From positions 1 through 32,977 of the IMG/VR virus record IMGVR_UViG_3300022744_000074: a DNA stretch of 32,977 bases. One strand, given 5' to 3'. This document shows, piece after piece, positions 6,286-11,142 of the stretch (the stretch's first letter is position 1; the number at the start of each line of letters is the position of its first letter). The position numbers and the translations under genes are program-made. The DNA is from a virus. Under the pieces are notes generated by a model. That model was not told the origin of the DNA. It did no database searches and saw only the letters and a list, made by a program, of their open reading frames with translations.

Positions 6286-6320
6286 GGCACAATGACAACG
6301 CGGCGCAACGCCGCAGCACG

Positions 6321-6399
6321 GCCTAGGGTAGCTCCCGAAAAGGCGGACTCTTCCCCCGCTCTGGCCCAGTGCTCCATCAGGGGAGGTGCTGGAAGGCAC
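6321..6399 (+). ncRNA. Structured leader upstream of the antirepressor, C4-like candidate
   Basis: Two consecutive folds precede the Rha gene. The first is GCCT (6321-6324) with AGGC (6341-6344), enclosing GGG-TAGCT-CCC (6326-6336). The second is CTTCCCC (6350-6356) with GGGGAGG (6380-6386), whose 3' strand lies just before the ribosome site GGAAGG. Phages P1 and P7 use the C4 antisense RNA upstream of their antirepressor gene, and C4-like RNAs occur before antirepressors in many prophages; position and shape fit. Assignment to C4 is inference and has not been checked against the family model. Confidence 0.45.
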
Positions 6400-9413: not shown

Positions 9414-9616
9414 ACGGCGACGTATGGCGCACGCAGTCCGGTCTGGTCGTGACAGAGATTGGCCGGCGCTGGATCGGCAGGAGTGAGATCGTGACAGTGC
9501 TGTCAACCGATCCGGCCGGCTCGCCGTGGGAGGCGCAGCGCACGCATCACATCCCGGCATCGGATCTAGCGCCGGAGCCGGCCCGGTATGAGGGTGCGCG
9601 GGGAGGGCGCGGCTGA
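9410..9616 (+). CDS. Unknown 68-aa protein
   Basis: ATGA-coupled to the HNH gene and TGATG-coupled to the resolvase. The sequence MNGDVWRTQSGLVVTEIGRR continues with IVTVLSTDPAGSPWEAQRTHH and reads like a small beta-barrel (SH3-like or KOW-type) fold: alternating V/I strands with tight turns. No specific family is recognised. Confidence 0.6.
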   Translation: MNGDVWRTQSGLVVTEIGRRWIGRSEIVTVLSTDPAGSPWEAQRTHHIPASDLAPEPARYEGARGGRG

Positions 9617-10053
9617 TGGCCGTGGTAATCGGCATCGACCCAGGCACGCACACGGGCGTAGCCGTCTACCGCGACGGCCAGCTGATCCGATGTGAGGCGA
9701 TGGGCGCACATGATGTGTTTGACTTGGTGCGCCAGCTAGCTGCATCTGAGACGGTCATGGTGGTCTATGAGGACGCGCGCATGATCGGTGGCATCGGCGG
9801 CGCGCGGGCTGGCAGCAAAGAGACGGCGGCGCGCGCCCAGGGGGCCGGCAGCGTCAAACGCGACTCGGCGCTATGGCAAGAGCTGCTGGAAAAGCTGGGC
9901 TGCTCATATCACCGCATCAGCCCGCGCGCCAAGGGCGGAAAGCTAACGCGGGACGAATTCAGGGTGCGGGCGAAATGGGATGCCCCGACAAATCAGCACG
10001 GCAGGGACGCCGCAATGATTGCATGGTCATATCGCAATTGGCGGAATTCGTGA
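9616..10053 (+). CDS. RuvC-like Holliday-junction resolvase
   Basis: A 145-aa RNase H-fold nuclease. The first strand carries IGIDPGTHTGVAV with Asp8, the second acidic residue is Glu52 in VVYED, and the C-terminal helix has HGRDAAMIAW with His128 and Asp131. These are the metal-binding positions of RuvC-type resolvases. Length matches phage resolvases, which debranch recombined or replicating DNA before packaging. It overlaps the upstream gene by one base (TGATG). Its stop codon lies inside the extended -10 of the RNA promoter that follows. Confidence 0.85.
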   Translation: MAVVIGIDPGTHTGVAVYRDGQLIRCEAMGAHDVFDLVRQLAASETVMVVYEDARMIGGIGGARAGSKETAARAQGAGSVKRDSALWQELLEKLGCSYHRISPRAKGGKLTRDEFRVRAKWDAPTNQHGRDAAMIAWSYRNWRNS

Positions 10054-10059
10054 TATGAT
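10051..10059 (+). promoter_or_regulatory. Extended -10 promoter of the structured RNA
   Basis: TGATATGAT gives TGn plus TATGAT (5 of 6 to consensus), an extended -10 that needs little or no -35. The expected transcription start is about 10066, 16 bases before the first hairpin of the non-coding RNA. The TG element overlaps the resolvase stop codon. Confidence 0.6.
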
Positions 10060-10065
10060 GGCTGC

Positions 10066-10490
10066 AAGAAATAGATAAACTGCCCAGGCGCACCGGGCTG
10101 ACACTCGGGAAAGACCGGGGTCATCAGATCGGCCGGCAAGCTTCGCCCGCTAGGAACCAAGCGCATGCGGGAAGGCTATACCTTGGACGCCGGCCGATCT
10201 GATGGCTAACACTCCCTTGAGCTGGTCACGCGGCAGACGGGGTTAGGCACTGTCGGCGCACCACGAAGCGTGGCAAGCGTGCGTCCTCGGTGCTGGTGTC
10301 ATCACGACTCGCCCACGATACGGGCGACCATCATCACAGCCGAATGCGGAGATCTGATCCGCTGGGGTTCGACTCCCCGCCGTCCGTAGCGGGCGGCACG
10401 AGAAACGGGAGATTCGGTGGTGTGAAGTCCGTCCGGCGTGTGCCGGGGCCGAAATGCCGGGATCAGATCCGGCCGGCTGTGATGACGGTG
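10066..10490 (+). ncRNA. Large multi-helix non-coding RNA, unassigned
   Basis: No credible gene occupies this stretch, yet it folds as a fully nested set of strong helices. There is a hairpin 10082-10085/10095-10098. P1 pairs 10119-10137 with 10189-10207 (16 perfect plus 3 further pairs). Inside P1, 10146-10150/10167-10171 form a hairpin and CCAAG (10157-10161) can pair with CTTGG (10182-10186) as a pseudoknot. P2 pairs 10246-10252/10288-10294 around hairpin 10261-10273. P3 is 10309-10314/10322-10327. P4 pairs 10331-10341/10475-10485 (11 perfect) and continues as 10351-10360/10460-10469 (10 perfect). Inside P4, GGGG-TTCGACT-CCCC (10364-10378) is a tRNA-like T-arm abutting an 8-bp hairpin (10379-10397), and a further hairpin lies at 10433-10446. 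The size and style recall ornate phage RNAs such as GOLLD or ROOL; the class is not established. Confidence 0.8.
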
Positions 10491-10575
10491 TGAATGCGCA
10501 GGCTGATGCGCTCGCAACGGGCGCCGCTTGAAAAGGCGATCATGTCGGCAGTTAGGGCGCGTGACTGGAAACAAA

Positions 10576-11142
10576 ATGACCGTTGCAGTATTGTTTGCCA
10601 GAGCCGACAGCCATTACAAGGCACTGCCTGGGACTGACGTTTACGACATTGAGCGCGATGCTCGCACGTATGACGGCCCGCACCCTGTCGTGGCACACCC
10701 GCCGTGCAGGGCCTGGGCGACGCTGCGCCACCATGCAAAGCCGCGACCTGACGAACGGAACCTCAGCCGCCTTGCCGTTGCCCTGGTGAGAGAGTTCGGC
10801 GGTGTGCTGGAGCACCCACACCGCACCACGCTGTGGGATGCGCAGAAACTACCGCAAGTAGGTGAGCGCGACGCATACGGCGGGTTCACGCTCGTTGTCG
10901 ACCAGAACTGGTGGGGCCATCGAGCGCAGAAGCGGACGCGGCTGTATGTAGTCGGCTGTGAGCTTGCCGAAGTCCCCACGATACCGCTGCGCCTGGGTGA
11001 AGCGACGCACACCGTTGGGCTGTGGAGCGGCAGGGATAAGGCGACGTGCCGGCCGAGCATTGCAAAGCACGAATACGAGAGCACGCCGCCAGAGCTGGCG
11101 GCCTGGCTAGTTGAACTGGCGGCAAAGTGCAAAGCGCCATAA
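10576..11142 (+). CDS. Cytosine-methyltransferase-like protein lacking a normal AdoMet motif
   Basis: In this 188-aa protein, VAHPPCRAWATLRHHAKPRP resembles motif IV (P-P-C), GGVLEHP takes the place of the ENV motif, and AQKRTRLYVVG resembles the R-x-R-L-F-x-V-G of motif VIII. The N-terminus VAVLFARADSHYK sits where motif I (D-L-F-A-G-x-G-G) belongs but lacks the glycine-rich loop. It may be a divergent base-modifying enzyme or a catalytically altered relative; similar proteins occur in phages of GC-rich hosts without assigned activity. The ATG at 10576 is used; the ribosome site is weak (GGAAACAAA). It directly follows the non-coding RNA. Confidence 0.65.
   Translation: MTVAVLFARADSHYKALPGTDVYDIERDARTYDGPHPVVAHPPCRAWATLRHHAKPRPDERNLSRLAVALVREFGGVLEHPHRTTLWDAQKLPQVGERDAYGGFTLVVDQNWWGHRAQKRTRLYVVGCELAEVPTIPLRLGEATHTVGLWSGRDKATCRPSIAKHEYESTPPELAAWLVELAAKCKAP

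Follow-up and report, generated by a model that had tools for sequence, protein, structure and literature searches.

Analysis of the window, the whole 32,977-base IMG/VR virus record, indicates that a folded RNA core at 10332-10490 (+ strand) very probably belongs to a widespread family of phage RNAs that is absent from Rfam 15, a judgement drawn from sequence comparison. The family has a common frame, namely a closing helix (P1), AAU, a hairpin (P2), a variable insert, a second hairpin (P7) and the returning strand of the closing helix (P1'). Structured phage RNAs near tRNAs are already known, and it is the P1-AAU-P2-insert-P7-P1' family itself that is the newly described variant. We know of no published description of it, and a search of the open-access literature (subscription papers lying outside the search) found no description of the signature sequence, of such an ornate phage RNA or of such a late-leader RNA. 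The family sits unannotated in the classical laboratory phages D3, HK620 and HK633, and joins GOLLD and ROOL as an RNA candidate in phage tRNA islands, which are poorly understood. The whole account favored here, to which we would give a probability of roughly 0.55, is of a folded family RNA carrying a domain that would mimic the tRNA elbow and serve as decoy or tether.

Membership of a Wider Phage RNA Family

A 22-base P2 signature (GTGAATGCGCAGGCTGATGCGC), found just 3' of the window core, is present in 193 annotated phage records. Twenty of these loci were read and nearly all show the frame described above, with the mainstream letters being GCGCA-GGCUGA-UGCGC for P2 and GCCGG-AGAUCAGCA-CCGGC for P7; the P7 end of Marin could not be placed. 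The main test of membership was a covariance model, R3, which was built from 13 annotated phages only and included no member of the window's group. This model matches the window at 10333-10483 with 41.1 bits (E 1.5e-8). It also finds the nearest relative of the window, L002 (43.2 bits), two copies in L111 (40.3 and 48.5 bits) and the held-out annotated phages L138, L139, L141, and L135, with nothing else in 340 kb at E < 1 except L017, which is a member by sequence.

Hosts of the family include Pseudomonas phage D3, HK620, HK633 and phages of Klebsiella, Aeromonas, Erwinia, Hafnia, Burkholderia, and Salmonella. As it is carried by many phages in culture and by prophages of E. coli, the RNA is not the curiosity of one phage. 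Of 5,426 complete E. coli genomes, 156 have a match to an HK620-type leader, and no annotated feature lies beneath the eight E. coli matches listed. Sampling of bacterial genomes with R3 gave one clear member among 369 Gammaproteobacteria and no convincing member among 289 Alphaproteobacteria, where two weak matches (L145, L146) are without P7 and are probably due to chance.

A search of Rfam 15 gave nothing above threshold in the interval that holds the core, and neither GOLLD nor ROOL matched at E ≤ 10, in agreement with the original suggestion that the RNA, not assignable to either of these by eye, may be of a new class. Only weak tRNA-like matches were seen, resting on GGGGUUCGACUCCCC, with a tRNA-Sec match of 20 bits that rests on the T-arm. 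Among nine family loci no Rfam family other than tRNA was matched; L128 has one sub-threshold sRNA-like match elsewhere in the locus. Readings as a Group I intron, RNase P or hammerhead had no Rfam support and were dropped. By blastn, the whole 527-nt interval had no match in phages and the core had none in plasmids. The core was also not found by DNA search among protein-based neighbors of the downstream gene, though one of these, L017, is a divergent member. Pattern matches in L023 and L024 (coding), L032-L034, L038-L041, and L112 were set aside as chance or as true tRNA/tmRNA.

The Intergenic Interval and Its Neighbors

The core is located in ~520 bases between a resolvase-like gene (9616-10053, PHROG 1770) and a gene of PHROG 12600 (10528-11142), to which no function is assigned. 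Homologs of the latter begin to align close to the ATG at 10576, near which the gene is likely to start. Its earlier description as methyltransferase-like is weak, as one phage relative carries the annotation 'putative DNA methylase' but there is no Pfam or NCBIfam match. Relatives of this gene occur in filamentous and microvirus records and also in tailed phages. That the interval holds no credible gene was confirmed, with no family match found for its open reading frames and with indels of 2 and 3 bases between the window and L002, which exclude a conserved reading frame.

The five helices named in the original prediction pair perfectly (P1 19/19, P2 7/7, P3 6/6, P4a 11/11, and P4b 10/10), and the + strand of 10054-10560 has a folding energy of -242.8 kcal/mol, where its shuffles average -213.3 (z -4.9, with 0 of 100 shuffles as good). 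The original reading of the interval as a structured, phage-borne non-coding RNA is supported. The minus strand of the interval also folds below its shuffles (z -3.55), so thermodynamics alone cannot pick the strand. The longest perfect inverted repeat (16) was reached by 13 of 400 shuffles and is mildly unusual on its own, and the statement that chance would not give such pairings was therefore too strong for single helices.

The proposal of a ~425-nt unit had to be reduced to 10332-10490. L002, to which a resolvase relative with 87% protein identity led, matches 10320-10511 with 93% identity, while the sequence between 10078 and ~10305 is replaced by an unrelated, also folded sequence; the 3' module is thus the unit of conservation. 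The variable 5' domain (10078-10305, + strand) contains the 19-bp P1 (10119-10207) and the P2 of the original prediction, and the 19-bp P1 and whole 5' part are absent from L002. Within it, 10123-10137 (AUCAGAUCGGCCGGC, the 5' strand of that P1) nearly repeats the P7 region at 10462-10477 (AUCAGAUCCGGCCGGC), and by this near-repeat the 5' domain could compete with the core for pairing. An own promoter had also been suggested. The candidate extended -10 element (TGATATGAT, 10051-10059, + strand) is present in the window and conserved in L002. It shares bases with the stop codon of the resolvase gene, however, and no sigma-70 hexamer pair was returned by a promoter scan, so that a private promoter upstream of the RNA is unproven.

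Architecture of the Conserved Core

All elements of the core are on the + strand. The closing helix P1 pairs 10332-10342 (CAUCACAGCCG) with 10474-10484, and different yet complementary letters are found in L111, L035, L017, CSP3, phi2, and others. It includes the P4a of the original prediction, and this half of the proposed two-part arm is hence the closing helix of the family. In place of the other half (P4b, 10 bp), comparison favors two separate hairpins, P2 and P7, with complementary loops, although P4b is thermodynamically favored in the window sequence alone.

Hairpin P2 (10346-10362, GCGGA-GAUCUGA-UCCGC) follows AAU, and its counterparts are GCGCA-GGCUGA-UGCGC in the mainstream, GCGCA/UGCGC in L111 and CUGC/GCAG in L017. 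Hairpin P7 (10456-10473, GCCGG-GAUCAGAU-CCGGC) likewise varies, with GCUGG/CCAGC in Meifeng and GCAGG/CCUGC in L035. The P2 loop strand AUCUGA (10352-10357) is complementary to UCAGAU in the P7 loop (10463-10468), a proposed kissing pair, and this complementarity is kept in relatives with other letters: GCUGA x UCAGC in the mainstream, GCGA x UCGC in L111, and GCCAA x UUGGC in L017, a compact 100-nt member with a 10-bp P1 that was found as a relative of the downstream gene. One loop-loop pair is G-U in L133, L129, and L139, as RNA would give, and in L035-37 the kissing pair is not clean, being only 4 bp in a shifted register. The aligned sequences demonstrate a predicted fold that is conserved and complementary loops that change together. 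These loops would act as a kissing pair or as a switch; in the window the family fold reaches -69.7 and a nested alternative merging P2 and P7 reaches -84.8, and the latter being 15 kcal/mol more stable makes a switch possible instead of a kissing pair.

Between P2 and P7 lies the insert of the window's subgroup, consisting of a T-arm, a capped 7-bp stem that follows it without a gap, the strand ACGAGAAACGG and a helix with a GGUGnGA internal loop. The T-arm (10363-10379) has a 5-bp stem and the loop UUCGACU and is present in the window, L002, L111, and L035-37, among which its stem shows the exchanges U-G/G-C and G-C/U-A. The capped stem (10380-10396, CCGUCCG-UAG-CGGGCGG) has 7 bp in all homologs, filling a gap of 22-23 nt in each. 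The strand ACGAGAAACGG (10398-10408) is a proposed analog of the D-loop, for which we infer a docking role; it is identical in L002 and L035-37 and its counterpart in L111 is ACGAGAAAAGG. Helix P5 (10413-10417/10449-10453), with a 14-nt internal loop (GGUGnGA), has compensatory changes at four of five pairs, and hairpin P6 (10432-10437/10442-10447), within the P5 element (10413-10453), at three of six. A partial second copy of the P2 signature (GTGTGAATGCGCAGGCTGATGCGC, 10489-10511), which is an exact family signature, lies at the end of the core; by reading, no P7 was found downstream of it.

Closest Relatives of the Window Core

Pattern scans of IMG/VR brought in L035, L036, L037, and L111. 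The first three are AT-rich phages, of which L037 encodes a clamp loader as well as tRNAs. L111 carries the RNA twice in full (86-246, and 3315-3466 in L122) in ~850 nt without a credible gene. In the alignment of the window, L002, L111, and L035-37, 94% of cells are paired and 24 of 44 pairs have changes on both sides; when partner columns were slid as a control, pairing fell to 36-49% and double-changed pairs to 2-8.

A second model, R1, built from the window and L002 only, scores L035 and L037 at 44.7 bits (E 1e-9), a value that is inflated for L035, which was found via the T-arm motif and had been seen before the structure was drawn. The best unrelated match of R1 is 16.8 bits, and the reverse strand of the window core scores 24.1 bits. 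As R3 did not list L035 and L036 at E ≤ 0.01, the place of these two in the wider family rests on R1 and R2. In L035 and L036 the closing helix has 7 bp with G-CCA after it and so resembles a tRNA end, which is not the case in the window. The RNAs of these two phages are almost identical, and most of their differences fall within the capped 7-bp stem.

Genomic Context and tRNA Neighborhood

Family members are mostly intergenic, many of them within late leaders or tRNA arrays and often between the antiterminator gene Q and holin. Such a position, from Q (with pR'/qut) to holin, is occupied in HK620, HK633, and Kp6; the HK620 copy lies between pR'/qut and the terminator tQ, and that of phiEt88 after an antitermination gene. 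Others are far from Q and holin: EPP-1 has the RNA before rdgC and BUCT_49532 next to an HNH gene, and the copies of the large phages Bullseye and Jeremy are likewise distant. Members adjoin tRNAs in D3, CF23a, ST4, Bas80, STGO, Meifeng, Gungnir39, Kp6, YMC16, phiEt88, and L002, with the RNA usually 7-340 nt upstream of the tRNA. In L002 a tRNA-Tyr gene is found 31 nt downstream of the core, and after it a hairpin with a T run, resembling a terminator, was seen by reading. No tRNA was found in the window, where ARAGORN also gave no tmRNA, and several family members have no tRNA nearby; adjacency is thus frequent and not defining.

The RNA and the nearby tRNA are on the same strand in all 11 tRNA-linked loci inspected (L002, L126, L128, L130-L133, L138, L139, L141, and L142), even in L131 and L133, where neighboring genes are on the opposite strand. 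This agreement favors a role at the RNA level. In Pseudomonas phage Jeremy (L129, 1085-1182), a tRNA-like fold with an extended acceptor stem lies straight before the family RNA.

Comparison with tRNA-like and Other Phage RNAs

The insert of the window has the geometry of the top half of a tRNA, with a 5-bp T-stem and a 7-bp stem that a tri-loop caps. In bacterial Y RNA the tRNA mimic is circularly permuted (PMC11472068), and YrlA binds PNPase together with the Ro60 orthologue (PMC8394870). Both YrlA (RF02553, compared through L102) and the window insert (10363-10396) have a T-arm, then a capped 7-bp acceptor-like stem and a D-region strand. However, the window RNA has an extra P2/P7 frame and does not match the RF02553 model, no complementary 3' strand that would give a D-stem beside ACGAGAAACGG was found by reading, and no Ro60 (TROVE) gene was found in the window record, L002 or L035-37, records that may be incomplete. 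Membership of the Ro60/Y RNA system was therefore ruled out, although the window RNA may, by analogy, work like a Y RNA and serve elbow-reading proteins as a decoy or tether. If true, a permuted elbow that does without Ro60 would widen the known range of tRNA mimicry. The comparison sequence from Sinosporangium album (L102, 1451-1600) is a YrlA-like RNA of 46.9 bits, below the Rfam cut-off, and a second one lies 0.3 kb away.

In tmRNA the D-analog has no stem. Standard and permuted tmRNA have in common with the window RNA the T-arm and this stemless D-analog, but the window copy has no tag frame and no CCA acceptor end. Because the T-arm insert occurs in the window's subgroup only, with T-arms in the CSP3 and Marin inserts seen only by eye, it cannot account for what the family as a whole does. 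A genome scan for the T-arm with CGAGAAACGG yielded 54 loci, most of which were read as tRNAs in which the motif arose by chance; no homologous arrangement of T-arm and capped stem was recognized among these loci with the same flanking motifs.

Proposed Role and Alternative Explanations

The RNA would be part of a phage late or tRNA-array transcript, from which it would be freed by tRNA processing or a terminator. Both co-transcription with tRNAs and the display of an exchangeable domain are what we infer: P1, P2, and P7 would form a rigid frame presenting the domain between P2 and P7. In the window, this domain would imitate the tRNA elbow, with the T-arm stacked on the capped 7-bp stem and ACGAGAAACGG docked on the T-loop. 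As the acceptor-like end is closed, the RNA could not be charged, and it would most likely bind a tRNA-recognizing host or phage protein as decoy or tether. A tRNA-mimic function for the window RNA is put forward tentatively. It is with similar reserve that the unnamed family is suggested to consist of one kissing-loop frame with interchangeable domains, acting in trans late in infection on the machinery that handles tRNAs or on defences based on tRNA.

A rather unlikely alternative is a cis-acting leader that controls processing, stability or late antitermination of a tRNA or lysis-gene transcript and does nothing in trans; the complementary loops would then, just as doubtfully, switch the RNA from its hairpin form to a nested helix and back. 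Lambda 6S, or late-leader RNA, is a leader between pR' and holin, and the HK620 and HK633 copies occupy this late leader, a likeness of position. The location from Q to holin and before tQ in HK620, HK633, and others, the usual distance upstream of a tRNA and the strong stability of the nested fold agree with such a leader, but the many members situated elsewhere, as in EPP-1, BUCT_49532, Bullseye, and Jeremy, do not, and the gene after the window copy is the PHROG 12600 gene of no assigned function.

It is improbable that the core is one domain of a larger self-assembling ornate RNA whose P2 and P7 loops kiss between molecules. GOLLD and ROOL are likewise phage-encoded and tRNA-adjoining with loop-loop contacts, GOLLD also having a variable 5' and a conserved 3' part as seen in the window and L002, and the two copies of L111 would fit such an assembly; however, no Rfam covariance model matches, the family core is ~100-215 nt, and L017 is a compact form. 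Least of all do we expect an element acting at the DNA level, such as a small mobile element, an origin or a packaging site, whose dyad symmetry resembles RNA structure. The many genomic positions, the paired copies in L111 and the partial second copy in the window would suit it, but the strand of the tRNA is kept throughout the tRNA-linked loci, G-U wobble occurs in P1 and in the loop pair, and the single-stranded ACGAGAAACGG is conserved.

Elsewhere in the window, an int-alpA RNA (RF02996, 42 bits) was found at 6316-6383, just upstream of Rha/KilAC antirepressor domains. As it sits within the longest open reading frame, the antirepressor gene probably starts later than 6292.
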